Below, piece after piece: positions 18,357-50,810 of a stretch of 64,000 nucleotides of DNA; within the stretch, counting starts at the first letter, position 1; every line of letters starts with the position of its first letter. A program made the translations under genes and the position numbers. This DNA comes from an uncultured Eubacterium sp. (GTDB lineage: Bacteria; Bacillota; Clostridia; Lachnospirales; Lachnospiraceae). The stretch lies in contig CAMUML010000006.1 of NCBI GenBank assembly GCA_947089855.1, positions 39,915 through 103,914 of the forward strand, read 5' to 3'. Under the pieces are notes generated by a model. It had not been told where the DNA came from and searched no databases. It saw only the letters and a program-made list of their open reading frames with translations.

Positions 18357-18362
18357 GAAGTG

Positions 18363-18392
18363 TTGACAAACAATAGGATATTTTTGCATAAT
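18363..18392 (+). promoter_or_regulatory. STAS gene promoter
   Basis: Perfect -35 TTGACA (18363-18368), 18-base spacer, -10 CATAAT (18387-18392). The leader to the gene is about 100 bases. Confidence 0.65.
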
Positions 18393-22171: not shown

Positions 22172-22239
22172 GGCTGTTCCGTTACGCTTAAAAAGCTGCC
22201 TTTCCTTATTTATTGGTACTTGTGTGTACGGGACGCTTG

Positions 22240-23155: not shown

Positions 23156-23187
23156 CATCTTATTTCATTTTTTTGCATCTTGTGCAA
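23156..23187 (+). promoter_or_regulatory. Regulator box B: 12-bp direct repeats, 20-bp period
   Basis: CATCTTATTTCA (23156-23167) and CATCTTGTGCAA (23176-23187). Exactly 28 bases separate it from the NRPS -10, the same distance as in box C for the ABC transporter. It lies between the divergent regulator and NRPS genes. Confidence 0.75.
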
Positions 23188-26500: not shown

Positions 26501-29500
26501 AGCCAATCGGCGAAGATTTTACCCAATTTGACCTGGCCGTAAAGGAAGAAAAAGAGCGGGCCAGCGAAAAATACCGGGAAGCGGAAGCGTATTACCGTTC
26601 GCTGCTCGGGCAGGCGGCGGTAGGGCAGCTGCCGGAAAAAGATGCCGTGATGGAACCTGGGCAGGCAGCCCAGGAATCCTGCGGATTTTATGAGGCGGCA
26701 AGCAGCATTCCAAAAGGGCAGGTAGAAGCATTTTGCCATAAACATAAGGTTACGGAAAATATTTTCTTCCTTTCGGTCATGGGGTATGTGCTTGGGCAGT
26801 ACCTGCATAGCGACGAAGCGGTGTTTACGACGGTTTATAATGGAAGGAACGACAGCCGGTGTTTCCATACGTTTGGGATGCTGGTAAAGACGCTGCCGGT
26901 ATATGCGCAGGTAAGCCCTAAGACGCAAGTTTGCGCATATGTAGGCGGGATACAAAAACAGCTGATGGAATCGGTGCGCCACGATATTTATTCGTTTGCC
27001 GAGATTAGCCATACCTACCAGGTGAAGCCGGATATTATGTTTGTCTACCAGGGGGATGATTTTACGGAATTTGAACTCGGCGGGCAAAAGACGGTGTTAA
27101 AAGAAGCCGTCAGCGACCGTGCGAAAGCGGCGTTGTCCATTAATATATTTGTGGAAAACGGCAGGTACCGGTTTACGTTTGAGTACCGCAGCGACTGGTA
27201 TACAGAGCGTTGGGTGAAACGGTTTTACGGGATTTTTGCGCAGGCATCGGTAAGTTTCCTTTCTGCTGCAGCTTTGGGCGATGTTACGGTTTTGACGCAG
27301 GAAGAGCGCAAGCGGCTGGAACAATTTAACGATACGGATCATCCGGTTCCGGTTATGAGCGTAAACCGCCTGTTTGAAGCATGGGCGGCAAAAGACCCGC
27401 AGCGCAAGGCCGTGGTTGCAGGCGGGAAAACGCTGACTTACGGCCAGCTCAACCGCCTGGCAAACCGCTTGGCGCACGGGCTGCTGCAAAGGGGTGTGAA
27501 ACCGGATACGCTGGTTGGCTGCCTCTTAGACAGGGACCAGACGGTGTATATCACTAGGCAGGGCATTCTAAAGGCCGGGGCAGGGTTCCTGCCGCTGGTG
27601 CCGGCTTATCCGGATGAGCGGATTGACTATTGCCTGCAGGATGCGGCCTGTGCATTTTTGATTACAACCGAACAGATCAAAAGCCAGCGCAAGGCGCTGT
27701 GGCAGGGCAAAACCTATCAGGTGCTGACCGTGGAAGAGCTGCTTAAGACACCGCAGGAAACCAACCCGGACCTTTCGATCGCGCCGGAACATTTGGCTTA
27801 TTGCCTGTATACGTCCGGTTCTACCGGAAAACCAAAAGGTGTGCTTGTCGAACACCGCAATTTATGCAATTTTGTAAATGCCAACCCGAAAAATATCGAA
27901 ATCACAAACTATACCGATCATGGAACGGTATCCTTGGCGCTTGCAGCGATTACGTTTGACGTCTCAGTAATGGAAGAATTTATACCGCTTTGCAATGGTA
28001 TGGCAATCTGCATGGCCAATGAGGAGGAAATCCATAACCCGCTGGCGCTTGCGCGGCTGATCTTGGAGCAGGAAGTGGATATTATGAAATGTACGCCTTC
28101 TTATATGATGCAGCTGGTTGAACTCCCGCAGATGAAGCGCGCCCTGCAGCGGATCCGTGCGTTTGACATTGGCGCCGAAGCTTTCCCTGGTTCCTTATAT
28201 GATAAAATGCGCAAAGTAAACCCAGATGCCGCGATTGTCAACAGCTATGGGCCGACGGAATGTACGGTAAGCTGTACAACCAAACGGATGGAAAGCGGCA
28301 AAGATGTGACCATTGGAGGGCCATTGGCCAATATGAAACTCTATGTAGCCAGCCCGCGCGGGCATATCCTGCCGGTGGGTATCAGCGGGGAACTGATTAT
28401 CTGCGGGGCCGGGGTCGGGCGCGGCTACCAGAACTTGCCGGATAAAACGAAGGAGGTGTTCTTTACCTTTGAAGGGATGAAGGCTTACCATAGCGGGGAT
28501 TTGGTAAAATGGAACGACAACGGGGAAATCGTGTTCTTAGGGCGGCTGGATAACCAGGTAAAACTAAGGGGGCTTCGGATTGAACTGGATGAGGTAGAAA
28601 ATGCAATCAATTCCTTCCCGGATATAAAAATGAGCAAAGCAGTGGTAAAAGGCAATGGCAGCGGGGAATTTTTGGCTGCGTACTTTACGGCATCTTCGGC
28701 CATTGATACCGAAAAGCTGGCAGCATATTTAAGGACGGTACTGGCGCATTATATGGTGCCGGGGGCATGGATGCAGCTGGAGGAAATGCCGCTTACCAGC
28801 CATGGGAAGATCGATAAAAAACGCCTGCCGCCACTGGAGTACCACGCGCAGGAACGGGCCTATGTAAAGCCTGCGAATGCAAGGGAAGATGAGTTTTGCC
28901 AGCTATTTAAAGAAATCCTGCAGCTGGGGCAGGTTGGGAGTACCGATAATTTTTTTGAAGCAGGGGGGACTTCGTTAAGCGCGGCAAAGATCGCGGTGTA
29001 CTGCGAGACAAAAGGGTACCAGATTGCCTACAAAGATATTTTTGACCATCCGACCCCGGCGCAGCTTGCGGGCCTTGTGGATGGGGAGCAGGAAAGCAGG
29101 CAGCCGTTGGAAAGCATCGTGGGGTATGATTATAGCAGGCTGCAAAGCGTACTTGCGAAAAATACACAGGATTCCGTATCCAGCCTGGGAAGGCAGCAAA
29201 GGCAGCCGCTTGGAAATATTTTGCTGACCGGGGCGACCGGTTTTTTGGGCATCCATATCCTGTTTGCCTTTTTAAAGCAGGAAACGGGGCAGGTCTATTG
29301 CCTGATGCGCAAAGGGCGGCATTCATCGTGTGAAAAACGGTTGAAAAACCTGCTGATGTATTATTTTGATTCTACCTTTGACGAAGCGTTTGGCAGCCGT
29401 ATCCATTGCGTTGAGGGGGATATTACCGACAGCGGCCTGCGTGGGCAGCTGGAAGGGCTGGATGTTGCGGCGGTAATCCATAGCGCAGCCTGTGTAAAGC

Positions 29501-30306
29501 ATTTTGTGCAGGATGGGCTGTTAGACCGGATTAATGTGGAAGGCACCAAAAATATACTGGATATATGCGTAAAAGCCGACTGGCGGATGGTACATATTTC
29601 TACCACGTCCGTCGCTGGGGAAGGGAATGCGGATACGGTTAGCAGCACAAAGCATATGCAGGAAAACGAACTGTATTTCGGGCAGATCATAGAAAATGAC
29701 TATATCCGTACAAAATTTTTGGCAGAGCGGGAAGTGCTGTCGGCAGCGGCGGCCGGGGCCAATGTTAAAGTGGTCCGGGTCGGCAACCTGATGAGCCGCA
29801 AATCCGATGGGGAATTTCAGATTAATTTTTTGACCAATGGGTTTATGCGGACACTCAAAGCGTATAAAAAGATAGGGAAATTCCCGATTGGGCAGATGCA
29901 TACGGCGGTGGAGTTTTCACCGATCGACAGCACAGCAGAAGCAATCCTTGCGCTGGCATCCTGCACACAGCCTTTTACGGTGTTCCATGCGTTTAATGGC
30001 CATAAAGTGTATATGGCGGATGTGGTTTATGCCATGCGCGCTTATGGGTTTTCGATGGAAGTGGTATCCGATGGGGAATTTGAAGCGGCGTTAAAAGCGC
30101 TGGAACAGGATGCTTCGCACAGTGAGACGGTGCTTGGGCTGATTGCATATGCATCGGGCGGCGGTGCCCCGCGCTATGAGCTTTTGGCTGACAATGATTT
30201 TACAGTGGAACTGCTGTATCGGCTGGACTATAAATGGCCGATTATAGACGATGCCTATCTGGAACATGTGATCAAAGCACTGGATACGTTGGGGTTCTTT
30301 GATTAA
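23515..30306 (+). CDS. Nonribosomal peptide synthetase, two modules with terminal reductase
   Basis: A 2263-residue cytoplasmic assembly line. Domains: a partial condensation-like region (1 to about 230, no HHxxxDG); adenylation 1 (about 235-740, LYTSGSTG near 390, GYGRMYRTGD, NQKVDK); carrier 1 (Ser in EEAGLTSIS near 770); condensation (about 825-1260, HHIISDGSS near 972); adenylation 2 (about 1275-1790, LYTSGSTG near 1431); carrier 2 (EAGGTSLSA near 1815); thioester reductase (about 1890-2263, LLTGATGFLG near 1901, catalytic YIRTK near 2062). It should join two amino acids and release a dipeptide aldehyde with NAD(P)H. With a free amine this would close to a dihydropyrazinone or pyrazinone, as for related gut clostridial NRPSs. 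No phosphopantetheinyl transferase gene is in the window. AAAGGAGG precedes the ATG. Confidence 0.95.
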   Translation: MEKRQAVEYFRGWIQNTEAESMPYPDWDSGSMQEAAQPYKTIHKRIGQKQPADAVSSGATGGRQELLLWLASLLLLAKYAGASETLAAVVADGRKFPLYLSFQNGEDVPACLEALKKQLDGAKDAGAFSYEEICAELELPQLAVVTQEPEVLEALAAEGGKLCICPVSGAEGITVSVRYHCASYREATMRQMLDSFAVLLGQVQQNQATGASVRGFSMMNEAMEKVLDAWNQTSVPYDCTVSVVDLFDQAVSQYGGKTAVVYQDKKLTYGQLGEIAGRIAAYIHALGIGRGDVVSILIPRCEYMPLTAIGVLKAGAAYQPLDAGYPPQRLQFMIEDADAKLLIADGSLLELVPEYQGKVLLLQDILDLPAVQDPGQAASYAPKSGDLMILLYTSGSTGVPKGVMLEHGNVAAFIQWYRRFYKMDETSRAAAYASFGFDANMMDMYPVLACGGQLHIIAEEMRLDLLAVREYFVHNQITHSFMTTQVGRQYAQMFPDCTNPHYLSVGGETLVPVDPPGGYAFYNVYGPTECTILTTVFRVEGQYANIPIGKPLDNLKLYIIDQDQNRLPAGVPGELCIAGPQVARGYLNRKEQTSQAFIRNPFSNEPGYGRMYRTGDMVRFLPDGSVAFVGRQDSQVKVRGFRIELSEVEEVVRQYEGVLDAAVTAYEQEGGGKYIAAYVVSNQTVDVEKLNDFIRQKKPPYMVPAVTMQIDKIPLNQNQKVDKRALPKPERRGAELVKPKTPMQQQLYECLKGILGYGDFGVTTSFEEAGLTSISSIRFLVELTGKFQAPVSISDLKEHASVEKLEQYLLTAPKEEVREQRGRYPLTQTQLGIYVECKKNSQAVYYNLPCAFMLQPDTSQEALAKAVQTAIQAHPSMQCTVQADGDGDVFMVPWGQSGNGDAGQAEGRHTEGMESINRTVGYEGITCIQGSEAQWPSYFAKFAKPFDLAKGPLYRVAFYQTQEHLYLVIDFHHIISDGSSIAAFIQELDRILKGKEPIGEDFTQFDLAVKEEKERASEKYREAEAYYRSLLGQAAVGQLPEKDAVMEPGQAAQESCGFYEAASSIPKGQVEAFCHKHKVTENIFFLSVMGYVLGQYLHSDEAVFTTVYNGRNDSRCFHTFGMLVKTLPVYAQVSPKTQVCAYVGGIQKQLMESVRHDIYSFAEISHTYQVKPDIMFVYQGDDFTEFELGGQKTVLKEAVSDRAKAALSINIFVENGRYRFTFEYRSDWYTERWVKRFYGIFAQASVSFLSAAALGDVTVLTQEERKRLEQFNDTDHPVPVMSVNRLFEAWAAKDPQRKAVVAGGKTLTYGQLNRLANRLAHGLLQRGVKPDTLVGCLLDRDQTVYITRQGILKAGAGFLPLVPAYPDERIDYCLQDAACAFLITTEQIKSQRKALWQGKTYQVLTVEELLKTPQETNPDLSIAPEHLAYCLYTSGSTGKPKGVLVEHRNLCNFVNANPKNIEITNYTDHGTVSLALAAITFDVSVMEEFIPLCNGMAICMANEEEIHNPLALARLILEQEVDIMKCTPSYMMQLVELPQMKRALQRIRAFDIGAEAFPGSLYDKMRKVNPDAAIVNSYGPTECTVSCTTKRMESGKDVTIGGPLANMKLYVASPRGHILPVGISGELIICGAGVGRGYQNLPDKTKEVFFTFEGMKAYHSGDLVKWNDNGEIVFLGRLDNQVKLRGLRIELDEVENAINSFPDIKMSKAVVKGNGSGEFLAAYFTASSAIDTEKLAAYLRTVLAHYMVPGAWMQLEEMPLTSHGKIDKKRLPPLEYHAQERAYVKPANAREDEFCQLFKEILQLGQVGSTDNFFEAGGTSLSAAKIAVYCETKGYQIAYKDIFDHPTPAQLAGLVDGEQESRQPLESIVGYDYSRLQSVLAKNTQDSVSSLGRQQRQPLGNILLTGATGFLGIHILFAFLKQETGQVYCLMRKGRHSSCEKRLKNLLMYYFDSTFDEAFGSRIHCVEGDITDSGLRGQLEGLDVAAVIHSAACVKHFVQDGLLDRINVEGTKNILDICVKADWRMVHISTTSVAGEGNADTVSSTKHMQENELYFGQIIENDYIRTKFLAEREVLSAAAAGANVKVVRVGNLMSRKSDGEFQINFLTNGFMRTLKAYKKIGKFPIGQMHTAVEFSPIDSTAEAILALASCTQPFTVFHAFNGHKVYMADVVYAMRAYGFSMEVVSDGEFEAALKALEQDASHSETVLGLIAYASGGGAPRYELLADNDFTVELLYRLDYKWPIIDDAYLEHVIKALDTLGFFD

Positions 30307-30339: not shown

Positions 30340-32112
30340 ATGAAGCAAAAAAAAGAAAATGGCTTGGCAAATACAAGGAATGAGAAGCTGATCCGGGCAA
30401 AATTTTTCCAATACCTGCTGCCAGGCATTATGATGACGGCGGCACTGCAGATTGGGAATATCGTCGATACGATGATGGTCGGCAACCTGCTGGGGCCAAA
30501 TGCCATGTCGGCGGTAAAGATCGGCATGGCGGTGGACAATATTATGGAAATACCAGGATATGTGCTTGGCGTGGGCGGCAGCGTAGCGGCAGGCATCTGC
30601 CTGGGGAAAAGGGACAGGGATAAGGCAAACCGCATTTTTTCCGGTACGCTTGCCATTAGTATTTTGTGCGGGGCGGTATTTTCTTTGTTATCGGTATTTT
30701 CGCCGGTATTGGCGGGCCTTTTAACGGGCGGAGGCGCGTTGGAAGGGGATGTCAGGGGGTTTGTATTTGTGACGCTGTTATGCGCCCCGGTCATTAGCGT
30801 GGCGCTGCAGTTTATGAGCTATCTGGCAGTCGATAACCATCCGTCTTTAGCATCTACTTATGTAATAGTGTCAAATGTATTAAACCTTGGCATGGATTAT
30901 GTGCTGCTGCGCTTTACGCCGCTTGGCACGGCTGGGGCGGCATTGTCTACCGCGTTTGGCTATGGTGCGGCTATGGTGCTGTTTGCCGCTTATTTCAAAT
31001 CACCAAAACGGATGCTGGCGTTTGTGTTTCCGTTTGCAAACATAAAAGATACTATGAAGACAGCCGTTGGCGCGGGGCTGCCGACACTTTTTTATATGGT
31101 GTTTTTAACCGTGAAAGACCTTGGCCTTAATTCCCTGATCCTGCGGGTGGTCGGGAGCGATGCTATGGCGGTGTATACGGTCTGCGCCAATGTGGTGCTT
31201 ACGGTAGAGCTGTTTGCAGGCGGGATTGTCGGGACCGTTTCTACGATCGGAAGCGTGCTTTATGGGCAGAAAGATTATTTTGCACTCAAAAGCCTGGTCA
31301 AACAAGTCCTGCTGCTTAGTTTTGCCGTAGTGTTTGTACTGATGGGATGCCTGTGGCTGCAGCCTGCCGCTGTGGTCGGCCTATTTGGCGTGCACGAACA
31401 GGGGCTGGTCGCTATGGCTGTGGAAGCGTTGCGTATTTTTGTATTTTCCCTGCCGTTTTACCAATGGAACAAATTCTGTACGGTGTATTACCAAAGTACG
31501 GAAAAAACAGGGCTGTCCGGTTTTATTACATCACTGCAGAATGGAGCGGCAGTGCTGCCGCTGGCCTATGCATTTGTATTTTATGCAAAGGCCACAGATC
31601 GAAACGGTATTTTGGCATTAATGCTGTCTTTTGTGGCCAGTGAAGCAGCGACGGTGTTGTTTGCGGCCTGCTACCGCAAGGTCTTGTATCGGAAGCGGAA
31701 TTTCCTCCTGCTGGAAGGACAGGAGCTGCCAGGCAGGGAATTTTCGGTGGAATGCGATATTTCCAAGGTTGCGGCTATTACAAAAGAAATTATCCGCTTT
31801 GGGCAGGAGCAGTCGGTGCCAAAGGCAAAAGCGAACCTGATCGCCGTGGCGGCCGAAGAGATGCTGGTCAATAGTATCAAGTACGGCGGGAAACGGGTAG
31901 ATACGATTGATGTGGCAGTACGTGCAGATGGCGGGCATTTTATTTTGCTGCTGATGGACAACGGGATACCATTTGACCCGACCGACTATGATTCGGACTG
32001 CAGCGGCTACGAGATCCATGGTATCGAAATGGTAAAGCGTATTTCGCAGAAAGTGCAGTATATGCGGGTACTGGACTTAAATTATACCGTGGTCGAAGTC
32101 CAATATCCATAG
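30340..32112 (+). CDS. MATE-family transporter with C-terminal RsbW-like ATPase domain
   Basis: A 590-residue fusion. Residues 1 to about 455 are a twelve-helix MATE exporter (PGIMMTAALQIGNIVDTMMVG at the start, split here as a family mark), normally driven by Na+ or H+. Residues from about 470 form a GHKL ATP-binding domain of the anti-sigma kinase kind: AAEEMLVNSIKYGG (N box with Glu and Asn), LMDNGIPFDP (G1 box with Asp) and HGIEMVKRI. The ATP site looks complete. The gene is 33 bases after the NRPS gene and may export its product under control of the extra domain. Known MATE proteins lack such a domain. Confidence 0.85.
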   Translation: MKQKKENGLANTRNEKLIRAKFFQYLLPGIMMTAALQIGNIVDTMMVGNLLGPNAMSAVKIGMAVDNIMEIPGYVLGVGGSVAAGICLGKRDRDKANRIFSGTLAISILCGAVFSLLSVFSPVLAGLLTGGGALEGDVRGFVFVTLLCAPVISVALQFMSYLAVDNHPSLASTYVIVSNVLNLGMDYVLLRFTPLGTAGAALSTAFGYGAAMVLFAAYFKSPKRMLAFVFPFANIKDTMKTAVGAGLPTLFYMVFLTVKDLGLNSLILRVVGSDAMAVYTVCANVVLTVELFAGGIVGTVSTIGSVLYGQKDYFALKSLVKQVLLLSFAVVFVLMGCLWLQPAAVVGLFGVHEQGLVAMAVEALRIFVFSLPFYQWNKFCTVYYQSTEKTGLSGFITSLQNGAAVLPLAYAFVFYAKATDRNGILALMLSFVASEAATVLFAACYRKVLYRKRNFLLLEGQELPGREFSVECDISKVAAITKEIIRFGQEQSVPKAKANLIAVAAEEMLVNSIKYGGKRVDTIDVAVRADGGHFILLLMDNGIPFDPTDYDSDCSGYEIHGIEMVKRISQKVQYMRVLDLNYTVVEVQYP

Positions 32113-32130
32113 TACTAGGAGGAAACGACA

Positions 32131-33867
32131 TTGGAAACAAGCGGGCCTTTGGAGCAGAATGGGCAATTTTTAAAAAAAGCATATGGAAGGGCGCTGATCC
32201 CATGTATCCTGTCTATTTTAAGCGGAAATATCAATATCCTTGTGGATGGGATTTTAGTTGGGCAAAAACTGGGGACCAATGCGCTGGCGGCGATCAATTT
32301 TAGCCTTCCGGTATATCTGGCGCTATGCATTGTAGGGTCCTTTATCGTATCAGGGACAGCCATTTGCGCATCGGAAGCGATTGGGGACAACCGGCGCGGG
32401 GAAGCGCAGTCGTTATACCATATGTCTGTTTTTTGGTGCACGGCGGTGTCGGCAGCAATTATGGCGGCCGGGTATTTTTTGGCCGGGCCGCTGTCTAGTT
32501 CCCTGTGTACGGACCAGACAGTTGCCGCTTTGGCCCAGGAATATATCGCTGTTACGGTGGCAGGGGCGCTGCCGAAGATCCTAATCTATATCCCATTCTG
32601 GTTTTTGCGCCTGGACGGGAGGAATGGGCAGGTTACCGTAATGATGGTTGTTATGGGCGCTGGCAATGTCTTGCTGGATATACTGTTTTTATTTGTGTTC
32701 GATATGGGGGTATTTGGGGCCGGGCTTGCCAGTGTCGTGGCGACGGCGGCAGCCTGTGCACTTGGTTTTTGGCGCCTGTGCGATCAAAAAAGCAGTTTCC
32801 GTTTTGGGTTTGCTGTTTTTTGTAAAAATATCCCGGTGGTGCAGATTGCAAAGGCAGGGTCGCCTTCGGCGGTAAACAACCTGTTTCAAACGCTGCGGGT
32901 CATGGCGGTCAATGCGCTGTTGATGCAGTATGGCGGCAGCGGGATGGTAGCGGCATTTACTGCGGTAAACTGTATCTGTGCATTTGAAGAAAGCGTGATC
33001 TGCGGGGTGCCGCAGGCGGCTTCTGCCATGCTGGGCATCTATAGCGGGGAACATGACAATGGCAGTGCCAGGCTGCTTTTGATGCAGGAAATAAAAAGCG
33101 GGGTGCCCTATTGCGTGCTGTTTTGTGCTGTGGTATTGGCTGGCAGCGGCTGGATTGCCAGGGCGTATGGCCTGCCAGAGCCTTTGCTGCCTGCGTTTGC
33201 CTGTATGGCAGCTGGTATGGTCCCGGCGCTTTTTAATTGTATCCTGTCGGGATATTACAACGTATCGGGGCATATTTTATGGGCAAATGTGATTATTTTC
33301 CTGCGTGTGTACTTGATGAGCGCGTTGTCTTTGCGCCTGCTGTTTTATTTTGGGGGAAATCCGTGGCTGTTTTTGGCATTCGGCGAGATATTAACCGTAG
33401 CGGTATGGTTTGTGGCGACCGGGGTTTCCCACTGGATTTACCCGCAGCAGTCCCGGTATTTTTTGATGGACGATACGCTTGAAAGGACAGGCAGGGTCAT
33501 TAATTTTTCAGTAAAAGGGGACGCAGTCGATATTTGCAGTGCCAGCAGCAAGATCACAGGGTTTTGCGAGGAAAATGGCATGGTGCCAAAACAGGTTATG
33601 CGCATCAGCCTTGCAATGGAAGAGATTATGACGCTGATCACAATGCACAATGAAGGCGGGAACGTAGCTTTTGACCTGCGTGTGTATGCCCTGCAGGATG
33701 TGATCGGCATCCGGATCCGTTACAGCGGAAAAGATTTTAACCCGCTTTGCTATACGGATGAAGAAGGCCAGGACTTGTATATGGGCATCCGCATGATCGA
33801 AGATATGGTAGAAGAAACGATGTACCAGCGGACATTTGGAATGAACACGCTTCAGATTTTATTATAG
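32131..33867 (+). CDS. Second MATE-family transporter with degenerate RsbW-like domain
   Basis: A 578-residue paralogue of the gene before it: MATE exporter in residues 1 to about 445, then a GHKL-like domain (about 460-578). In that domain the N box has Glu (SLAMEEIMTLITMHNE) but no Asn, and the G1 box reads IRYSGKDFNP, with Tyr where the ATP-binding Asp should be. So it probably keeps the fold for protein binding without ATP turnover. The start is TTG at 32131, set by AGGAGG nine bases upstream; no better ATG is near. Paired transporters may work as a heterodimer or have different cargo. Confidence 0.82.
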   Translation: METSGPLEQNGQFLKKAYGRALIPCILSILSGNINILVDGILVGQKLGTNALAAINFSLPVYLALCIVGSFIVSGTAICASEAIGDNRRGEAQSLYHMSVFWCTAVSAAIMAAGYFLAGPLSSSLCTDQTVAALAQEYIAVTVAGALPKILIYIPFWFLRLDGRNGQVTVMMVVMGAGNVLLDILFLFVFDMGVFGAGLASVVATAAACALGFWRLCDQKSSFRFGFAVFCKNIPVVQIAKAGSPSAVNNLFQTLRVMAVNALLMQYGGSGMVAAFTAVNCICAFEESVICGVPQAASAMLGIYSGEHDNGSARLLLMQEIKSGVPYCVLFCAVVLAGSGWIARAYGLPEPLLPAFACMAAGMVPALFNCILSGYYNVSGHILWANVIIFLRVYLMSALSLRLLFYFGGNPWLFLAFGEILTVAVWFVATGVSHWIYPQQSRYFLMDDTLERTGRVINFSVKGDAVDICSASSKITGFCEENGMVPKQVMRISLAMEEIMTLITMHNEGGNVAFDLRVYALQDVIGIRIRYSGKDFNPLCYTDEEGQDLYMGIRMIEDMVEETMYQRTFGMNTLQILL

Positions 33868-33876
33868 GGGTAGGCA

Positions 33877-35532
33877 ATGAAGATAGATTGTAAAACACTG
33901 GGGCGGGAGGCGCTAACGCGGCTGCGCCGGACAGCAGGCCAGCCCAAAGAAGTGCAGGAGGCGCTGTTAAAAAAACTGCTGCAAAAAAACCAGGATACCG
34001 CCTACGGAAAAAAATATGGGTTTGCGTCGGTCGATTCGCGAAAAACCTATCAAAAAGCGGTCCCGGTTTCCTGCTATGAGGATTATGAGCCATATATCCT
34101 GCGTATGACGCAAGGCAAGGAGCAGGAACTGACAATGGACCCCGCGGCCTATTTTTGCATCAGTTCCGGTACCACCGGGGAGCCGAAATACCTGCCTTTG
34201 ACAGAAGCCGATTTAAACTTATATTATATTTATGCCTGCGGCACCGTGTTTGGCGTGGCAGGGGAATATTACAAAGATACGCAAAATATTTATGGAAAGG
34301 TATTCCAGCTTGGGGAATTTGCAAAAACCTGCATGCAAGACGGCAGGCTGCAGGGCATCCGTTCCGCTTCCCTTTACCAGTGGCTTGACCGGGACGGGCA
34401 GTTTGATACCTCTGGCTACTGTGTGCCAAAAGAAGTGCTGTTTCCGTCCAAGCTGGAGGACTTGTTATATGTGAAAGTGCGTTTTGCGCTGGCGCAACAG
34501 GATTTGTGCGCGATCCATGGCGTGTTTATCAACCGGGTCGTCGCCGTTATGGATTATATTTACCAGAATTGGGAAATGCTGCTTTCAGACATGGCATCGG
34601 GGACGGTATCGAAAGGCGCAGGGCTGGGCCGGCACTGGGCCTCTTATATAGAAGAAAAGCTGCCGCCGGACACGGAGCGGGCAAAGGCCCTGCAAAGTTT
34701 TTCATACGGGGATTTGCGCCAGGGTATGATGCGGAAATTGTGGCCGCAGCTTAAGTATGTGCAGGCGATTGGCGGGGAAGCATTTTCCTATTATATGAAA
34801 CGGTACGAAGAATATGCGGCAGGCACCCCGCTGCACCATTTTGTATATGGCGCTTCCGAAGGGATATTTGGCGTAGCAGGGCAGATGGATGCCCCGGATG
34901 CCTATATCCTGTTCCCGGAAGCAGGATTTTTTGAATTCCTGCCGCTGGATGGCGCTGCAACGCCGCGGCCGCTCTTTTTATGGGAGCTGGAACAGGGGCG
35001 GCGCTATGAGCTGCTGTTTACCAACCATTCGGGCCTGTACCGGTACCGGATGGGGGATGTGGTAGAAACGACCGGCTGGTATGGAAAACTTCCGCTTGTG
35101 CGGTTTTGCTACCGGAAAAACCTGGTCGTCAATATCGCAGGGGAAAAGAGCAATTTAGAGCAGCTCGAAGGGGCCGTCCGCCGGTTTGCCAAACAGGCCG
35201 GTGTGCTGGTGAACGGGTATTGCGTACAGGAAGATGTAGGCGGTGCATTGCCAAGGTATCTGTTTTATATGGAAGTTTCCGGACATATGCCAAGCCGCGC
35301 GCAGGAAATTTTGGAGGAATGCCTTTGTGCGGTCAACTTTGAATACCAAGGGTGCCGGAATATGAATGAGATCGGGCCTTTGTGCATCAAAATGCTGCGC
35401 ACAGGGAGTTTTGCACGGTATGAAAAACACCTGGAGGCACAAGGCGTTCCATTGGGGCAAAATAAGCTGCTGCGGATTTTAGATACCGATGAAAAAAAGA
35501 GGTTTTTTGGCGGAAACTGGGCGGATGGATAA
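33877..35532 (+). CDS. GH3-family acyl-adenylate-forming enzyme
   Basis: A 551-residue protein of the GH3 family, best known from plants, where it joins amino acids to acyl acids such as jasmonate or auxin through an acyl-AMP. The ATP-binding loop reads YFCISSGTTGEPKYLP (near residue 90-105), and FVYGASEGIFGV and YRYRMGDVVETTGWY fit the later motifs. It starts 9 bases after the MATE gene. In this operon it could modify the NRPS product or supply an acyl or aminoacyl part. The substrate cannot be read from the sequence. Confidence 0.85.
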   Translation: MKIDCKTLGREALTRLRRTAGQPKEVQEALLKKLLQKNQDTAYGKKYGFASVDSRKTYQKAVPVSCYEDYEPYILRMTQGKEQELTMDPAAYFCISSGTTGEPKYLPLTEADLNLYYIYACGTVFGVAGEYYKDTQNIYGKVFQLGEFAKTCMQDGRLQGIRSASLYQWLDRDGQFDTSGYCVPKEVLFPSKLEDLLYVKVRFALAQQDLCAIHGVFINRVVAVMDYIYQNWEMLLSDMASGTVSKGAGLGRHWASYIEEKLPPDTERAKALQSFSYGDLRQGMMRKLWPQLKYVQAIGGEAFSYYMKRYEEYAAGTPLHHFVYGASEGIFGVAGQMDAPDAYILFPEAGFFEFLPLDGAATPRPLFLWELEQGRRYELLFTNHSGLYRYRMGDVVETTGWYGKLPLVRFCYRKNLVVNIAGEKSNLEQLEGAVRRFAKQAGVLVNGYCVQEDVGGALPRYLFYMEVSGHMPSRAQEILEECLCAVNFEYQGCRNMNEIGPLCIKMLRTGSFARYEKHLEAQGVPLGQNKLLRILDTDEKKRFFGGNWADG

Positions 35533-35578
35533 CTGGAAGTTCGGGATTGGCCGACAATAGGAAAGGCAGGATTCGTAT

Positions 35579-37192
35579 ATGAAAGAAAAAATGGCCGGGA
35601 TTACGGGCAGGCTGCTGGCCGGGATTGTCCTGTTTGGGTTATTGCTTGGGATTGCAGCCAGTACGGTTGGGTATCGGGAGTTTACCTCTGTACTTGAAAA
35701 GCAGTATAATGATACTGCCTATGAAATTGCAGATACGGCATGCGGCTATCTGAATCCGGACAAATTTGAAGATTATGTTGCGGGCGGGCAGCCAGATGAG
35801 GAATACAACCGTATCTTAGGGCAGCTGGACGCGCTGGTGGACGCATCGGATGTGACGTTTATTTATGTAGCACAAGTAGATACCACCGATTTTATGTCAC
35901 TTACGTATATCTATGATTCCCTAAACCCTGACAGCGGCTTTAGCCGTTATCCGCTTGGCTATACGGCCAGGGATGTGGCAGAGGAATTTGTGGAGGATGT
36001 CAGAAATATTGTGACGAAAGGGGAACGGGCGAAAAAATACTTGTATGCGTATTCCAAAGAGTCCGGCGCCCATACGACGGCAGCAGTCCCTGTATACGAT
36101 TCCAAAGGGGAGATCGTAGCCATCCTCTGCGTGGAAAAGACAATGACGCGCCTGGAAAATGCCAGGAACACCTATGTGGTACATGTATTGGCAGGTACCC
36201 TGCTGGCAATTGTTTTATTTTTCTTATTATATAGTACCTATTTGAAAAAAGAAGTGATCGCACCGATTTTGGCGGTTACCAATGAGGCAAAGCGGTTTGC
36301 GGATACGAATACCCCTTCGGATGCGCTGCTTTCGCTGAAACGGAAGGACGAGATCGGTATTTTGGCCAAGGCAGTCAGCAAGATGGAAGCCGACATTCAA
36401 GAATATATTGAAAACCTGACAGCCGTTACCGCAGAAAAAGAGCGTATTGGCGCAGAACTTTCGATTGCCACACAGATACAGGCCCATATGCTGCCAAGTA
36501 TTTTCCCGGCATTTCCAGACCGGGAGGAGTTTGAGATCTATGCCACTATGAACCCGGCAAAAGAAGTGGGCGGGGACTTTTACGATTTCTTTATGGTGGA
36601 TAAAACACATTTGGCCATCGTAATGGCGGACGTGTCCGGCAAAGGGGTTCCTGCCGCGTTATTTATGGTAATTGGGAAAACGCTGATCAAGGACCATACG
36701 CTGCCGGAAGCAGACCTTGGAACGGTATTTACGCAGGTTAATAACCTGTTGTGCGAATCAAACAGCGAAGGGCTGTTTATCACAGCATTTGAAGGGGTTT
36801 TGGATTTAGAGTCAGGGGAGTTCCAATTTGTCAATGCAGGGCATGAAATGCCGTTTATCTGCAAAAAAGGGCAGGCGTTTGAGCCGTATAAAGTACGCCC
36901 CGGCTTTGTGCTGGCCGGTATGGAGGAAATGCGCTACCGCAGCGGGAGCCTTGCCTTAGAACCAGGGGATAAGATTTTCCTATATACGGACGGCGTTACG
37001 GAGGCGACCCGTGCGGACAATACACTCTTTGGTATGGAGCGGCTAACCGATGTCCTGGGACGCAGCAGTACGATGTGCCCGGAAGAGATTTTGCCAGCGG
37101 TAAAACAGGAGATCGATGCGTTTGTAAAAGATGCACCACAGTTTGACGATATTACAATGTTGTGTATGGAATATAGAGGAGGAAGCATATGA
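35579..37192 (+). CDS. Membrane SpoIIE/RsbU-type serine phosphatase with sensor domain
   Basis: A 537-residue sensor phosphatase. TM helix at about 10-30, an extracellular sensor (about 31-200, with VTFIYVAQVDTTDFMSLTYI), TM helix at about 200-222, HAMP to about 280, then a PP2C-like SpoIIE domain (about 300-535). Metal-site motifs are intact: AKEVGGDFYDFF, VMADVSGKGVPAALFM, NAGHEMPF, LYTDGVTEAT and FDDITMLCM. Its usual job is to dephosphorylate a STAS protein; the one at 18500 is the candidate. The stop overlaps the next start (ATGA), so it is coupled to the RsbW-like gene. Confidence 0.92.
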   Translation: MKEKMAGITGRLLAGIVLFGLLLGIAASTVGYREFTSVLEKQYNDTAYEIADTACGYLNPDKFEDYVAGGQPDEEYNRILGQLDALVDASDVTFIYVAQVDTTDFMSLTYIYDSLNPDSGFSRYPLGYTARDVAEEFVEDVRNIVTKGERAKKYLYAYSKESGAHTTAAVPVYDSKGEIVAILCVEKTMTRLENARNTYVVHVLAGTLLAIVLFFLLYSTYLKKEVIAPILAVTNEAKRFADTNTPSDALLSLKRKDEIGILAKAVSKMEADIQEYIENLTAVTAEKERIGAELSIATQIQAHMLPSIFPAFPDREEFEIYATMNPAKEVGGDFYDFFMVDKTHLAIVMADVSGKGVPAALFMVIGKTLIKDHTLPEADLGTVFTQVNNLLCESNSEGLFITAFEGVLDLESGEFQFVNAGHEMPFICKKGQAFEPYKVRPGFVLAGMEEMRYRSGSLALEPGDKIFLYTDGVTEATRADNTLFGMERLTDVLGRSSTMCPEEILPAVKQEIDAFVKDAPQFDDITMLCMEYRGGSI

Positions 37193-37605
37193 AAGAACTG
37201 ACTATCAACGCCGCTGTGGAAAATATCCGGGAAGTTACTGCATTTGTGGATGGGCAATTGGAAGAACTTGGCTGCCCAATGAAAGCACAGATGCAGATTG
37301 ACATAGCGATTGACGAATTGTTTGGGAATATCGCACATTACGCCTATCATCCAGGGGACGGCCCTGCGACCGTGCGCGTGGAAGTGTGCCAGGATCCGCT
37401 GTCGGTATGTATCACTTTTATTGACCAGGGTATGCCGTATGACCCGCTTGCCAAGGCTGACCCGGATGTAACGCTGGCAGCGCAGGAACGGGAAATCGGC
37501 GGGCTGGGGATTTATATGGTAAAAAAGAGTATGGATGAGATTACTTATGAATATAAGGATGGCAGGAATATATTAAAAATTAAAAAAGAGATAGGTACAA
37601 GGTGA
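37189..37605 (+). CDS. RsbW-like ATP-binding protein (anti-sigma kinase type)
   Basis: A 138-residue stand-alone GHKL domain: IAIDELFGNIAHYAY (N box), FIDQGMPYDPL (G1) and GGLGIYMVKKSMDE (G2), all intact. Such proteins phosphorylate a STAS antagonist and bind a sigma factor or other target. It is the last gene of the NRPS operon and overlaps the phosphatase gene by 4 bases. No dedicated sigma factor of the SigB kind is near. The same domain is fused to three transporters of this locus, so the target may be a transporter. Confidence 0.9.
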   Translation: MKELTINAAVENIREVTAFVDGQLEELGCPMKAQMQIDIAIDELFGNIAHYAYHPGDGPATVRVEVCQDPLSVCITFIDQGMPYDPLAKADPDVTLAAQEREIGGLGIYMVKKSMDEITYEYKDGRNILKIKKEIGTR

Positions 37606-37771
37606 ACCACTACAATAAAGGAGCGTTGGCGGCATTATGCTATGGCAGGTTGCTAATAACGGAATAACATATTCATTGTGGAGAAGAAAGCGTATGGTAC
37701 GAAGCCAATGTGGTTTGGGCAAAGGATGTAAGCTGTAAATATGGTAAAACAGAATGGCAGGATTCTTTATG

Positions 37772-37815
37772 AAACACAAAACGTCAGGAAACCTGACATT
37801 CTGTGTTTGCTTTTG
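37772..37815 (+). terminator. Terminator of the NRPS operon
   Basis: Two-part stem: AAACACA (37772-37778) with TGTGTTT (37802-37808), inside it GTCAGG with CCTGAC, then GCTTTTG. The 312-base gap 37606-37917 holds nothing else I can support; a 33-codon frame at 37637 is too weak to call. Confidence 0.75.
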
Positions 37816-37917
37816 TAATTATAAATGCTTATCGGTATCTCTTGCACTATACAGCAAACGCCGTACGTCCATATTTTATCAAAATATGATCGTATCTGCA
37901 ATGCTTATTTATGATTC

Positions 37918-39018
37918 TTAATTTCCGGCCTCAATTTCTAAAAGCACAGTATTTAGCCCGTCCGGCCCAAGACAGCCAAGGTATGACATTGTTTTTGCGG
38001 CATGCCTGACCAATGCCAGCGCAGGCTGGTTGCTGCTGCCGGCAGGGTCAAAAGCATTGCCGTTATACTGCACCTGCATCTGTGCCAGGGCGGTATCTTC
38101 CGAATATTCAATTTTAATATACATCCGCATTTCTTCCGGCAGAATTGGCAAAAGGATCTGCACACACAGTTCTTCAAACGCTGCCTGTAGGCAGTAAATG
38201 GCTTTCTGCGGGATCAGGTGTTTTCGGCCAAATTCCTCAAGCTGGCTGTTGATGCCGATAAAGTCAAATTCCCTGGTGTCAATCGTTGCGGAAAATACTT
38301 TCAGGCGGCGGATAAACTGCCGGGTGCGTTCCCTCCTGGGGTGTTCAAAGATTTGTTCCGGTGTCCCGTCTTCATAAATCTCGCCTTGGTCCATATAAAA
38401 AATACGGGTGGAAACATCCCTGGCAAATTTCATTTCATGGGTGACAATCAGCATTGTGAGCCCTTTTCCCGCAAGCGTGCGGATAACAGACAAAACTTCC
38501 CCGACCATCGTAGGGTCTAAAGCACTGGTCGGCTCATCAAACAGGATAATTTCAGGGTCCATAGACAAAGTCCTTGCGATTGCCACACGCTGCTTTTGCC
38601 CGCCGGAAAGTTCATCAGGGTAAGCGTTTGCTTTATCCGCCAGGCCAACCATACGCAGCAGCCCGATGCCTTTTTCATAAGCCTCCTGGCGCGGGCGGTG
38701 CAGCAGGTCGACTGGCCCGGCCATAATATTTTCTATAATTGTCTTATGCGAAAATAAATAAAAGCTTTGGAATACCATCCCCATTTTCCGCCTGACCAGA
38801 TGAATCTTGCAGTTTTTATCCGTAATGGTTTCGCCGTCAATGGTGATCTTCCCGCTGGTCGGCACTTCCAGCAGGTTGATGCAGCGCAATAGCGTGGATT
38901 TCCCAGTACCGGAAGGGCCGATAATCGATATGACTTCCCCGTTTTTGATTTCCGTATCAATATCTTTTAAAGGCGTTACCGATGCATATTCTTTCCGTAA
39001 ATGTTCAATGCGGATCAA
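37918..39018 (-). CDS. Amino-acid ABC transporter ATPase with C-terminal RsbW-like domain
   Basis: A 366-residue fusion. Residues 1 to about 245 are a normal polar amino-acid ABC ATPase (GlnQ type): GPSGTGKSTLLRCINLLE (Walker A), LSGGQKQRVAIARTL (signature) and IILFDEPTSALDP (Walker B). Residues from about 255 to 366 are a GHKL-like domain: LQAAFEELCVQ in place of the N box, and VQYNGNAFDPAG, where Tyr replaces the ATP-binding Asp of G1. This matches the loss seen in the second MATE protein. The start overlaps the stop of the preceding permease gene by 4 bases. Confidence 0.88.
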   Translation of the reverse strand: MIRIEHLRKEYASVTPLKDIDTEIKNGEVISIIGPSGTGKSTLLRCINLLEVPTSGKITIDGETITDKNCKIHLVRRKMGMVFQSFYLFSHKTIIENIMAGPVDLLHRPRQEAYEKGIGLLRMVGLADKANAYPDELSGGQKQRVAIARTLSMDPEIILFDEPTSALDPTMVGEVLSVIRTLAGKGLTMLIVTHEMKFARDVSTRIFYMDQGEIYEDGTPEQIFEHPRRERTRQFIRRLKVFSATIDTREFDFIGINSQLEEFGRKHLIPQKAIYCLQAAFEELCVQILLPILPEEMRMYIKIEYSEDTALAQMQVQYNGNAFDPAGSSNQPALALVRHAAKTMSYLGCLGPDGLNTVLLEIEAGN

Positions 39019-40703
39019 TGTGTTTCCACCCCCTTTACTTTCCGTGCCCTACGTTTCGGGTCTATCTGGCGTTCGATCATTGTCAGTGCAGTTGTCATCA
39101 GGTTTGCTACGGTAAAGTAGATGACAGCAGTAGCAATTAAAGGGAAAAATGCGTCCATTGTATGGGAACGGATAATATCGGACGCTTTTGTCAAGTCCTG
39201 TACCGCGATGTATCCCACAACCGAAGTCATTTTTACCATAGAGATAAATTCCCCTTTTAAAACAGGCAGAAAACGCACCGCTGCCTGTGGGAAGACAATT
39301 TTCCAAAACGTCTGGTATTTGGTATACCCCATTGCAAACGCAGCTTCCGACTGCCCTTTATCGACCGATTCGATCCCGTTGCGCATCATTTCGGAAGTAT
39401 AGGCGGCAAAATTGACTGAAAATCCGATCACCGATACGGCAATGCCGGATATATCGGAGGATGCAAAGATAATATAAAACAAGATCATCAAAAATACGAC
39501 GATCGGCATCCCCTGGACTACCCGGATAAATACCGAAGCGCCCCAACGGGCAGGTTTATTTTTCATGCGTCTTAGCATACAAAGGCCAAACCCCAAAACC
39601 AGCCCAAAAATACCTGATAAAACAGAAATTAAAATAGTAACGCCAAGCCCGTCTAAAATCATCTTCCAGCGGTTTTCTTCTAAAAAGGTGCTGGCAAAGC
39701 TTTCCTTTAAGCCTTCCCAAAAGCTGGCCTGCACGCTTGCCGCACCCGTATCCCGCACAAGCAGGACGACGGCGCTTTTATAATAAGGTTCAGAAAAATC
39801 GACATTCTTTTTCTTTTCCTCCGTAATATCCATGCATCCGCTGGCAATATCCGCCTTGCCGCTTTGAATGGCAGGGACCAGCGCGTCAAAATCACAGATC
39901 GTCATTTCCACTTTCAGGTCCAGCTCCCTTGCGGCCATAAGCACCAGATCCAGGTCATAGCCAGCGCTTTCCCCGCCTTTGCCGATATAGCACATCGGGT
40001 TGTAGGTGGCATCGTGGTAATACCGTACGGTGCCGTTTGCACCCTCCCAATCCTGCTGGATCAGCACTTTGCCTTCCTCTTCCCCATCCAGCCACTTATC
40101 CTCCAATGCTTTTAACGTGCCGTCTTCCCAAAACTGGCGGATAACCTGGTTAAAAGGTTCTAGCAGCGGGCTGTTTTTTGGAAATACAATGCCATATTCC
40201 GCCTGTGCGACCGTTTGCGGCATTATGCAGATACCGCTGTTTGCATGGATGGCCAGGCGCGCCACCGGTTCGTCAAGGCAGACCGCATCCACCCGTCCTG
40301 CTTTTAGCGCGACAATGGTATCGGTTGCCGTAGGGTAATAGACAAACTCATTTTCATGCGTTAGGGCGTCTTTTAAAACCGTATCAAACCCTGTGACCAT
40401 CCCAATTTTTTTCCCAGACATCTCATCCAGGCTGCTATATTCTGCCTGCGGCGGGTTGGCGCTGTCGGTTTCCGGCTGTTGGGCAGCGGCGTTGCCAGTT
40501 TCCGGCTGTTGGGCAGCGGCGTTGCCAGTTTCCAGCTGTTGGGCAGTGGCGATGCCGGTTTTGTCCGGCTGGCTGCCGCAGCCTGACGCAAATAGGGCGG
40601 ATAGTGCCAGTATGAACGCCAGCATGGGCAGTATGTATAAGAAACGTGTTTGCCGGTTGCCGTTTTGCACAACCTGTTTGCTTCGCATATCTTCCCTATG
40701 CAT
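39015..40703 (-). CDS. ABC transporter substrate-binding protein fused to permease, amino-acid type
   Basis: A 562-residue lipoprotein-permease fusion. The signal ends in the lipobox ASGC (Cys near 42). A 10-residue unit (ETGNAAAQQP) is repeated three times as a linker. Then come the two lobes of a family-3 solute-binding protein, but in the order C-lobe-like (SGKKIGMVTGFDT to EDKWLDG, about 92-212) before N-lobe-like (NGTVRYYHDATYNP to VLLVRD, about 222-325). The last part (about 340-555) is a HisM/GlnP permease with ESVDKGQSEAAFAMGYTK. Import of a polar amino acid is likely. GGAGGAGGTGG precedes the start. Transcription comes from the box C promoter. Confidence 0.88.
   Translation of the reverse strand: MHREDMRSKQVVQNGNRQTRFLYILPMLAFILALSALFASGCGSQPDKTGIATAQQLETGNAAAQQPETGNAAAQQPETDSANPPQAEYSSLDEMSGKKIGMVTGFDTVLKDALTHENEFVYYPTATDTIVALKAGRVDAVCLDEPVARLAIHANSGICIMPQTVAQAEYGIVFPKNSPLLEPFNQVIRQFWEDGTLKALEDKWLDGEEEGKVLIQQDWEGANGTVRYYHDATYNPMCYIGKGGESAGYDLDLVLMAARELDLKVEMTICDFDALVPAIQSGKADIASGCMDITEEKKKNVDFSEPYYKSAVVLLVRDTGAASVQASFWEGLKESFASTFLEENRWKMILDGLGVTILISVLSGIFGLVLGFGLCMLRRMKNKPARWGASVFIRVVQGMPIVVFLMILFYIIFASSDISGIAVSVIGFSVNFAAYTSEMMRNGIESVDKGQSEAAFAMGYTKYQTFWKIVFPQAAVRFLPVLKGEFISMVKMTSVVGYIAVQDLTKASDIIRSHTMDAFFPLIATAVIYFTVANLMTTALTMIERQIDPKRRARKVKGVETH
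40471..40560 (-). repeat. Three tandem 30-bp units within the binding-protein gene
   Basis: Units 40471-40500 and 40501-40530 are identical; the third (40531-40560) has three changes. They code for a 10-residue linker repeated in frame between the lipid anchor and the binding domain. Confidence 0.9.
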
Positions 40704-40915: not shown

Positions 40916-40947
40916 TTACATCAGATGCAAAAAATCAACATAAGATG
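40916..40947 (-). promoter_or_regulatory. Regulator box C: 12-bp direct repeats, 20-bp period
   Basis: On the minus strand CATCTTATGTTG (40947-40936) and CATCTGATGTAA (40927-40916). It points to the ABC transporter. A -10-like TATGAT (40968-40973) on the plus strand leads to the alkylsulfatase-like gene, so the box may serve both directions. Confidence 0.75.
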
Positions 40948-45323: not shown

Positions 45324-45386
45324 TAAATGTGTTTTATACGGGGAGCAGGCAAGCTAAAATCCTTAGCAAGAAAGGAAGAGGAAAAT

Positions 45387-45692
45387 ATGGAACAATCAAA
45401 CGAATTACAGGCTAGGCAGTTAAAAGGCGCAATGGACCACGCAAAGAAAGGGGTTCTAAAAAGAGGGGAACTATTGGATGAAGAACTGGATCCGGTAGCT
45501 GGCGGCGCGGTATTAAACAGTGTGTTTTATATTGCAAAATGTACGCTTTGCGGCTGGCAGTCCCCGCCATATGACGGGCAGGGGGAATGCGATGCAGGCG
45601 GCGTGATCTTTAAACATATCCAGGAACACCCGGACTGCAGTGGGAATTTTGAAGTATACCAGTTTGACAGCAGGAATGTTATTTTAAGCTAA
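45387..45692 (+). CDS. Small protein with Gly-Gly leader and zinc-finger-like core
   Basis: A 101-residue protein. Residues up to about 39 form a helical leader ending ELLDEELDPVAGG, the double-glycine site read by C39 peptidases; the exporter is encoded two genes on. The remaining part contains CTLCGW and, 20 or more residues later, HIQEHPDC, a CxxC...HxxxH arrangement that could hold zinc. It is unlike the four Nif11-type precursors further on. It could be a bacteriocin, signal or carrier. I choose 45387 because GGAAGAGG precedes it; the frame from 45327 lacks a ribosome site. Confidence 0.7.
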   Translation: MEQSNELQARQLKGAMDHAKKGVLKRGELLDEELDPVAGGAVLNSVFYIAKCTLCGWQSPPYDGQGECDAGGVIFKHIQEHPDCSGNFEVYQFDSRNVILS

Positions 45693-45771
45693 TTGCCCAT
45701 CTTGCGAAAATGGCAACGTAAATATAACAGTGCAATGGCTTGTTTGCAATGTTACAGGGAAGCAGAAAATG

Positions 45772-45803
45772 GCGGGGTATCGGGCAAAGCTGCCATACCC
45801 CGC
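45772..45803 (+). promoter_or_regulatory. Strong hairpin between peptide gene and export genes
   Basis: GCGGGGTAT (45772-45780) pairs perfectly with ATACCCCGC (45795-45803), with an inner GGCA/TGCC stem. No T-run follows, so it is not a standard terminator. It could stabilise the upstream peptide mRNA or lower expression of the exporter genes. Confidence 0.55.
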
Positions 45804-45823
45804 AGAAAGTGACGGTGGTTATT

Positions 45824-46297
45824 ATGGAAAATCAGCTTTTCCGTGATAAGAGCATCCAACGGGTGTCTTCGCCGGAGCAGCTAAACGATTATATCCGTGT
45901 ATCGAACCCAGGCGTTTGGATCTGTATGGCGGCAGTTTTGGTGCTTTTGGCTGGTGTTTGTGTATGGGGGGTTTTCGGGCAGCTGGATACAACGGTAAGT
46001 ACCGCAGTGGTTGTAAAAGACGGCACAATGTCGTGTTTGGTGAAAGAAGCGGATATAGCCCGTATCCGCAGTGGAATGACGGTAACGGCAGGCGGGCAGG
46101 AGTGTACCATTGCTGCTGTTTCCGAGGGGCCGGCGGCGGTTCCGGAAGATGCGGATACCTACCTTTTGCATGTCGGCGGGCTGCTGCCAGGGGAGTGGGT
46201 GTATGAGGCAACGGCCCAGTCTACGCTGGAAGACGGTATTTATGCTGGCAGTATTTTAGTGGAACGGGTATCCCCGCTTTCTTTTATAGTAAATTAA
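45824..46297 (+). CDS. Short HlyD-like secretion accessory protein of the NHLP system
   Basis: A 157-residue membrane-anchored protein with one transmembrane helix (about 30-55) and a short beta-rich outer part. The N-terminus (FRDKSIQRVSSPEQLNDYIRVSNPGVWICMAAVLVLLAG, given as family mark in part) is typical of the accessory protein of NHLP leader-peptide exporters. It is much shorter than full adaptor proteins and has no long coiled coil. It starts at 45824 and stands 33 bases before the exporter gene. Confidence 0.75.
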   Translation: MENQLFRDKSIQRVSSPEQLNDYIRVSNPGVWICMAAVLVLLAGVCVWGVFGQLDTTVSTAVVVKDGTMSCLVKEADIARIRSGMTVTAGGQECTIAAVSEGPAAVPEDADTYLLHVGGLLPGEWVYEATAQSTLEDGIYAGSILVERVSPLSFIVN

Positions 46298-46330
46298 AAG
46301 CCAAAAACAATGCCGGAGACGAGGTGTACA

Positions 46331-48511: not shown

Positions 48512-48535
48512 CAGGCATGCAGGAAGGAGCCAAAA

Positions 48536-50713: not shown

Positions 50714-50810
50714 AGGCGGCTGCAAAAAATAAGGCGGTTTTTCCCAAATTATGAGCCCTTTGGTAAATAGGGCCGTATAAATAAGTAAAAAGGAAGGAGG
50801 GAGTTATCGT

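Follow-up and report, generated by a model that had tools for sequence, protein, structure and literature searches.

Partner switching is best known for the control of sigma factors, as in the RsbU/RsbV/RsbW and SpoIIE/SpoIIAA/SpoIIAB systems of Bacillus, which are built from a PPM phosphatase, a STAS protein and a GHKL serine kinase. Here we describe a locus of an uncultured Eubacterium sp. (Lachnospiraceae) in which the same three families are found together and in which, unlike in Bacillus, the kinase-like domain is fused to transporters, a separate sigma target appears to be absent and sigma genes are not enriched around the fusions. The locus lies in a stretch of 64,000 nucleotides (hereafter the window; contig CAMUML010000006.1, positions 39,915 to 103,914), part of a 4.08-Mb genome, and its core contains two MATE exporters and one ABC ATPase that each end in an RsbW-like (HATPase_c_2) domain, which we call HAT. 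We consider it somewhat probable that these genes form a partner switch that acts on membrane transporters in place of a sigma factor.

Several described systems approach this arrangement from different sides. Transporters fused to a GHKL ATPase are known from the CbrA type, where the ATPase belongs to a histidine kinase; the fusion is shared by the proteins described here, but domain scans found only MatE and HATPase_c_2 in the two exporters, with no histidine phospho-acceptor domain, and only ABC/AAA-type families in the ABC ATPase. A partner switch with a non-sigma output exists in SiaABCD of Pseudomonas aeruginosa, where a PP2C phosphatase and a kinase balance a STAS-like protein and the output is a diguanylate cyclase (PMC7647112), whereas the candidate outputs here are transporters that themselves bear the kinase-like domain. 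Among NCBIfam models, the window phosphatase matches SiaA best, but its 77 bits against a cut-off of 700 do not place it among the SiaA equivalogs, and no diguanylate cyclase domain was found among the ten window proteins scanned. In the MlaB-MlaF pair, a STAS protein binds an ABC transporter ATPase and is needed for stability, complex assembly and function; there the STAS protein contacts the nucleotide-binding domain itself, and the abstract mentions no RsbW-like domain, kinase or phosphatase (PMC7367683). The window STAS protein scores 19.3 bits with the MlaB equivalog model, whose cut-off is 90. Finally, in SLC26/SulP transporters the STAS domain is physically part of the transporter (PMC8256260), while here it is the opposite partner, the RsbW-like domain, that is fused. 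Literature searches aimed at this arrangement found no description of HAT-tagged transporters in open-access texts. Partner switching itself is known, and what appears to be new is the transporters carrying an RsbW-like partner, of which the abstracts on SiaABCD and MlaB-MlaF give no account.

The fused transporters and their switch genes

The first exporter, MATE1 (30340-32112, + strand), matches MatE and, above the Pfam cut-off, HATPase_c_2 (32.2 versus 27.4 bits); in the second, MATE2 (32131-33867, + strand; TTG start codon preceded by AGGAGG), MatE is accompanied by a HATPase_c_2 match below the cut-off (E 0.001). The third protein is an amino-acid-type ABC ATPase (37918-39018, - strand) whose C-terminal domain is degenerate: a Pfam scan of the whole protein gave no HATPase match at E 0.01 and the tail scanned alone gave a weak one (E 0.087). 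Profile-profile comparison by hhalign of nine such ABC tails with ten free RsbW proteins reached 96% probability, against 0.1% for an unrelated STAS profile used as control; when PDB sequences were searched with the ABC-tail profile, neither RsbW nor SpoIIAB came up. A profile of the fused domains does match the structures of SpoIIAB (E 0.003) and RsbW (0.014), PF13581 is matched at E 0.01 by 15 of 18 fused MATEs, and an alignment of 16 fused domains shows an invariant Glu-Glu pair, a Tyr and a C-terminal Asn. The HAT domain of MATE1 retains Glu-Glu, the N-box Asn and the G1 Asp; in MATE2 and in the ABC tail the G1 Asp is replaced by Tyr and the N-box Asn by Leu and Gln, respectively. A preliminary description of the window had claimed both the RsbW-like domain at the end of the three transporters and these motif states, except for the loss of the N-box Asn in MATE2 and the ABC tail, which it did not mention; its claims hold, the domain by Pfam for the two MATEs and by hhalign for the ABC tail. 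Because the termini of MATE proteins lie in the cytoplasm, as do ABC ATPases, each of the three fused domains is expected on the cytoplasmic side; by a rough count from hydropathy, the two MATEs have 9 and 13 segments.

The fused genes are accompanied by a complete free partner switch. It includes an RsbW-like predicted serine kinase (37189-37605, + strand) with N, G1 and G2 motifs (DELFGN, DQG and GGLG), which scores 39.4 bits with the curated NCBIfam RsbW model (cut-off 145) and is thus a relative and not a SigB equivalog, and a membrane phosphatase (35579-37192, + strand) composed of a sensor region, a weak HAMP and a SpoIIE (PPM) domain (PF07228, 152 bits). The third component is a STAS protein of 100 aa (18500-18802, + strand) with an SSAGLR motif carrying a predicted phosphorylation site; its score with TIGR00377 exceeds the cut-off, and its S54 is invariant in 23 of 23 STAS proteins. 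The genome contains, among the matches listed, exactly one member of this STAS family at E<=1e-15, and it is found in the same stretch as the three HAT-tagged transporters and one RsbW. The preliminary description had placed all three switch components around the transporters, between positions 30340 and 39018; this stands for the free RsbW and the phosphatase, while the STAS gene lies outside that range, about 5 kb upstream of a gene for a nonribosomal peptide synthetase (NRPS).

This NRPS (23515-30306, + strand; 2263 aa, C(partial)-A-C-A-reductase) has AusA as its best NCBIfam match (1037 bits, the cut-off being 2500). Downstream on its strand, separated by short gaps, come MATE1, MATE2, a GH3-family protein (33877-35532, + strand) absent from the preliminary description, which we take to be of the acyl-acid amide synthetase family, and the overlapping genes for the phosphatase and the free RsbW, the last two of the operon. 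The MATEs would export the NRPS product. On the opposite strand, the gene of the HAT-tagged ATPase overlaps by a few bases that of its partner, in which substrate-binding domains are fused to an ABC permease (39015-40703, - strand).

These units are preceded by a common control box, CATYTYATK-N5-TTTTKG-CATCTKRTG, of 29 nt with two CATC-type direct repeats of period 20. As the preliminary description had proposed, it occurs upstream of the STAS gene (18325-18353, + strand, 0 mismatches), of the NRPS-MATE operon (23156-23184, + strand) and of the ABC operon (40919-40947, - strand). A scan of the whole genome returned these three perfect sites (18325, 23156 and 40919) and one site with two mismatches elsewhere (C19:53492, L184), between genes that match no switch profile; the reversed pattern, used as control, gave 0 sites at up to three mismatches. 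Since the pattern was written from the three window sites themselves, only the scarcity of further sites counts as a result. In a congener, the box is again present ahead of the NRPS (L044) and, at one and two mismatches, close to MATE2 (L045); a scan of 12 other related loci did not find it.

The box is similar to the direct repeats of LytTR regulators, and a LytTR response regulator (22240-22983, - strand), whose gene lies between the site before STAS and that before the NRPS, is the likely reader of the box. It adjoins a GHKL (HATPase_c_5) membrane sensor kinase (20804-22423, - strand), presumably AgrC-like as judged by eye. We propose that the STAS gene and the divergent ABC operon would share one regulon with the MATE-HAT operon. 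A regulator pair of the LytTR/AgrC type as a fixed part of the system was considered and rejected: such genes, present in L044, L048, L051, L140 and L188, are not enriched near MATEs with a HAT domain, being found within 9 kb of 3 of the 31 switch-linked ones, 2 of the 43 others and 5 of the 49 control MATEs described below.

Recurrence across genera and loss of ATP motifs

At E 1e-6, a profile of the HAT domain has matches, RsbW proteins included, in at least 107 of the order's 392 genomes, and at 1e-12 in 42 of 391 genomes of the class. Among the matches listed, strong ones of transporter size (E up to 1e-20) come from 43 of these 392. All five loci found by a search with MATE2 in named genomes belong to Lachnospiraceae, while the corresponding scan with an alignment of 13 rows detected no conserved stretch. 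The neighbourhoods of 67 MATEs fused to HAT (MATE-HATs) from 74 loci (L044-L057 and L059-L118, the window excluded) were compared with those of 49 unfused MATEs from 40 loci. Fifteen seed MATE-HATs were chosen by their likeness to MATE1 and the rest with a profile derived partly from switch loci; the controls comprise a first set of 26, which also includes a few MATE-HAT genomes, and a second set of 23 drawn solely from such genomes. Genes were called as longest open frames and annotated with profiles built in this analysis. Loci L139-L158, chosen mainly for odd frame sizes, stand outside the co-location counts, and L080 is not counted as RsbW-bearing because its RsbW match is the HAT-tagged SDF symporter gene discussed below.

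Of the 67 MATE-HATs, 24 (16 of 29 genera) have a gene for STAS, SpoIIE or RsbW within 5 kb, versus 1 of the 49 unfused MATEs (p 5e-6), and the proportion without the seed loci is 14 of 52 (11 of 22 genera, p 4e-4). A comparison with fewer controls, within 9 kb and with the window included, gave 29 of 69 MATE-HATs versus 0 of 20 controls. At the level of genomes, the HAT and STAS match lists were cross-tabulated, the 392 genomes being taken as including the window's own, which was omitted: among the matches listed, the STAS family is present in all 42 genomes with a strong HAT transporter versus 74 of the 349 others, and in 25 of 25 genera versus 26 of 148. The recurrent co-occurrence of fused transporters and switch genes, on which the preliminary description had made its proposal partly depend, is therefore found both around the genes and across genomes. 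Furthermore, two loci (L160 and L162) have one continuous run of genes, namely NRPS, MATE1-HAT, a 193-aa gene (glyoxalase-like in L160), STAS, MATE2-HAT, GH3, SpoIIE and RsbW; the NRPS of L162 is called in pieces, and L161 has the same gene order with no RsbW called. The relatives with one such run include the cultured Lachnospiraceae bacterium 3-1 (L162).

The HAT domain is not restricted to MATEs. It is found at the N-terminus of 17 SDF symporters examined (L140 and L141 included), where hhalign gives 97% probability with RsbW and 0.2% with the STAS control and where there is no G1 Asp (17 inspected by eye; three rows in the motif alignment); six of the 17 genes are directly downstream of a SpoIIE-RsbW gene. 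It is also found on 11 ABC proteins, the window's included. Some are one-chain amino-acid ABC importers joining binding protein, permease, ATPase and HAT tail (L140:8153-10885 and L141-L143, the frame of L143 being truncated where its contig begins). Apart from the window, six loci have the ABC ATPase-HAT as a separate gene, always with a substrate-binding/permease fusion next to it, and three of these six have a STAS domain gene within 9 kb. In L140 and L141, a fused SpoIIE-RsbW gene is followed by HAT-SDF and then by the one-chain importer. A STAS gene stands just before SpoIIE-RsbW; that of L140 is on the same stretch, and that of L141 is on the adjoining one, L188. Three transporter folds that bear HAT occur in gene runs with STAS or SpoIIE-RsbW. 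The domain further forms the end of an AMP-ligase and also occurs with MATE on one side and HD-CE on the other. As a side observation, MATE-HAT frames of 884-889 aa with an extra C-terminal part exist in L074 (8943-11612), L081 and L084; in L074 this part is HD-CE (Pfam), and separate HD-CE genes follow the MATE-HAT in L083 and L101.

The ATP-binding motifs are unevenly kept. In 84 MATE-HATs, Glu-Glu is retained in all 84, the N-box Asn in 52 and the G1 Asp in 66, and none of 11 members of the ABC-HAT set keeps the G1 Asp; the 30 RsbW domains outside transporters keep the Asn in 30 cases and the Asp in 29. A tree of 123 domains recovers an RsbW group (support 96/89) and an ABC-HAT group (96/99), and among MATE-HATs the motif-lost label requires 9 changes (losses or regains), at least four of them forced by supported branches; given the short length of the domain, many forks of this tree are not settled. 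Neighbourhoods were compared with motif state in 74 MATE-HATs, the window and L139-L158 excluded. SpoIIE lies within 5 kb of 16 of the 25 motif-lost versus 7 of the 49 motif-kept proteins (p 3e-5) and RsbW of 9 of 25 versus 4 of 49 (p 0.007), the related sequences not being independent. In the motif list of 82 MATE-HATs (window and L151-L163 included, L159 omitted as a copy of L045), 17 of the 20 motif-kept proteins with the G1 Gly stand beside an NRPS or GH3 gene.

A candidate circuit and its competitors

The observations concern the domains and the state of their motifs, the co-location in different genera, the co-occurrence in genomes and the shared box, and from them we infer how the parts may interact: the binding of STAS to HAT, its phosphorylation, the gating and its sign, the direction of the signal and the co-regulation through the box. 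The membrane phosphatase would sense a signal and dephosphorylate STAS through its SpoIIE domain, and the free RsbW kinase would rephosphorylate it using ATP. Unphosphorylated STAS would dock on the cytoplasmic HAT domains of both exporters and of the importer, and this docking would gate them. Domains devoid of ATP motifs (MATE2, ABC, SDF) would be pure STAS readers, while MATE1, where the motifs are kept, may read and also phosphorylate STAS. The common box would raise the expression of STAS together with that of the NRPS/export and ABC operons. Judging by sequence, a HAT domain that does not use ATP and that has a kinase and a phosphatase as separate companions resembles a STAS receptor, and the earlier suggestion that the G1-Tyr domains bind partners without ATP turnover fits the repeated change of motifs and the nearby SpoIIE genes.

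Several observations weigh against this circuit. No switch gene lies within 5 kb of 43 of the 67 MATE-HATs. An unfused MATE (L182:9178-10674, 498 aa) adjoins STAS and SpoIIE, with RsbW nearby. The HAT profile was derived partly from switch loci, which favours their recovery, and the genomes are related. For STAS alone, the difference between motif-lost and motif-kept MATE-HATs is weak (11 of 25 versus 10 of 49, p 0.055), and a motif-kept subclass with Cys in place of the G1 Gly (30 of the 82) has a switch gene in only 5 members, the other 25 standing without one. Among the six other separate ABC-HATs, STAS lies within 5 kb of one and SpoIIE of none. Finally, 74 genomes hold the STAS family without a strong HAT-transporter match, among the matches listed. 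The stand-alone MATE-HATs may use a distant STAS, given that the surveyed strong-match genomes hold one, or part of the family may work otherwise.

The direction of the signal could also be the opposite one. The transporters would then be sensors: through the HAT domain, which would phosphorylate STAS or sequester it, they would inform the STAS/RsbW pool of transport or of substrate load, with the output elsewhere, in gene expression or in biosynthetic enzymes. The ATP motifs kept in MATE1-type domains suit such a role, with Asn and G1 Asp retained in the proportions given above, and transporter-kinase fusions such as CbrA offer a precedent. Nevertheless, the motifs are gone from MATE2 and from the ABC domains, the SDF domains are without the G1 Asp, and the motif state has changed repeatedly; the motif-lost MATE-HATs are more often near SpoIIE, as suits readers more than senders, and sigma genes are not enriched nearby (within 5 kb of 1 of the 67 MATE-HATs versus 2 of the 49 controls). 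We therefore regard a sensor role as unlikely.

It appears improbable that HAT is an add-on for dimerisation, stability or nucleotide sensing that never meets STAS, the co-location reflecting only shared biosynthetic clusters. The many MATE-HATs distant from any switch gene, and the occurrence of the domain on an AMP-ligase and between MATE and HD-CE, speak for it. The STAS family is however found in every one of the listed strong HAT-transporter genomes, and several transporter folds carry HAT, three of them in runs with STAS or SpoIIE-RsbW; moreover, RsbW-type domains typically bind STAS, and the PDB entries 1th8 and 6m36 contain both partners.

An ordinary partner switch, serving a sigma factor or the NRPS/GH3 enzymes and merely standing beside transporters with decayed kinase domains, seems to us quite improbable. 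The RsbW-STAS-SpoIIE set is complete, and within 5 kb of MATE-HATs NRPS condensation domains (14 of 67) and GH3 (13 of 67), each absent around the 49 controls, nearly match STAS (15 of 67) and SpoIIE (19 of 67). Among the matches listed, no sigma gene lies within 30340-39018, and the nearest is a gene for an extracytoplasmic function (ECF) sigma factor at 54065-54604, 17 kb away; a sigma partner encoded at a distance is conceivable. Against this stand the low count of sigma genes around MATE-HATs and the separate locus (L058) of the sporulation switch and its sigma factor, and the fusion itself would be left unexplained. Chance or artefact was rejected, since the fusions recur in long open frames across many genera. 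A known anti-phage defence system was likewise rejected: PADLOC gave only generic ATPase-type matches for the ABC ATPase, no match for six other window proteins, and one weak match, to the HD-CE protein of L101.

Other partners of the switch and its possible reach

The presence of the STAS family in 74 genomes without a strong HAT transporter implies that it serves other partners too. Six loci (L139, L144, L146, L147, L150 and L155) contain STAS with a fused SpoIIE-RsbW and no MATE-HAT gene in the stretch, next to GH3, a PHP-domain protein, an AMP-ligase or unknown genes, and there the switch probably serves further outputs besides transporters. Other partners of the family would be fusions with an APH kinase-like domain: STAS, APH and RsbW form one chain of about 525 aa in L148 (4747-6327) and probably in L149 (5957-7534), APH being Pfam-confirmed in L148 only, and STAS-APH proteins of 348-506 aa exist in L099, L104, L113, L144 and L150.

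Elsewhere in the window, the ECF gene adjoins a likely cluster for a ribosomally synthesised and post-translationally modified peptide (45327-53920), recognised by eye. It comprises small Cys-rich proteins in tandem, whose ends are leader-like (LSEDELDAVAGGK), together with a radical SAM-like gene and two genes for ABC exporters. A similar repeat (..IHGLGAV..SNHSGRYWKFASQNRPSLL..) is found at 1998-2483, near other genes, and at 18058-18366, where it precedes the STAS gene.

If the circuit of transporters with a kinase-like partner is correct, partner switching would become a direct post-translational gate on export and uptake in many gut Clostridia. It would provide a handle on the timing of NRPS product release by gut bacteria, and the role of SpoIIE/STAS/RsbW sets that have no neighbouring sigma factor becomes accessible to tests. 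A broader and more tentative possibility, to which we give somewhat less than even credence, is a general control of transport in Clostridia, in which one STAS phospho-switch would address many transporters through HAT as a shared plug-in docking domain of MATE exporters, ABC importers and SDF symporters, the kinase having turned several times into a pseudokinase receptor. Were this so, a set of unrelated pumps would be opened or shut at once, post-translationally and together with the biosynthetic operon.

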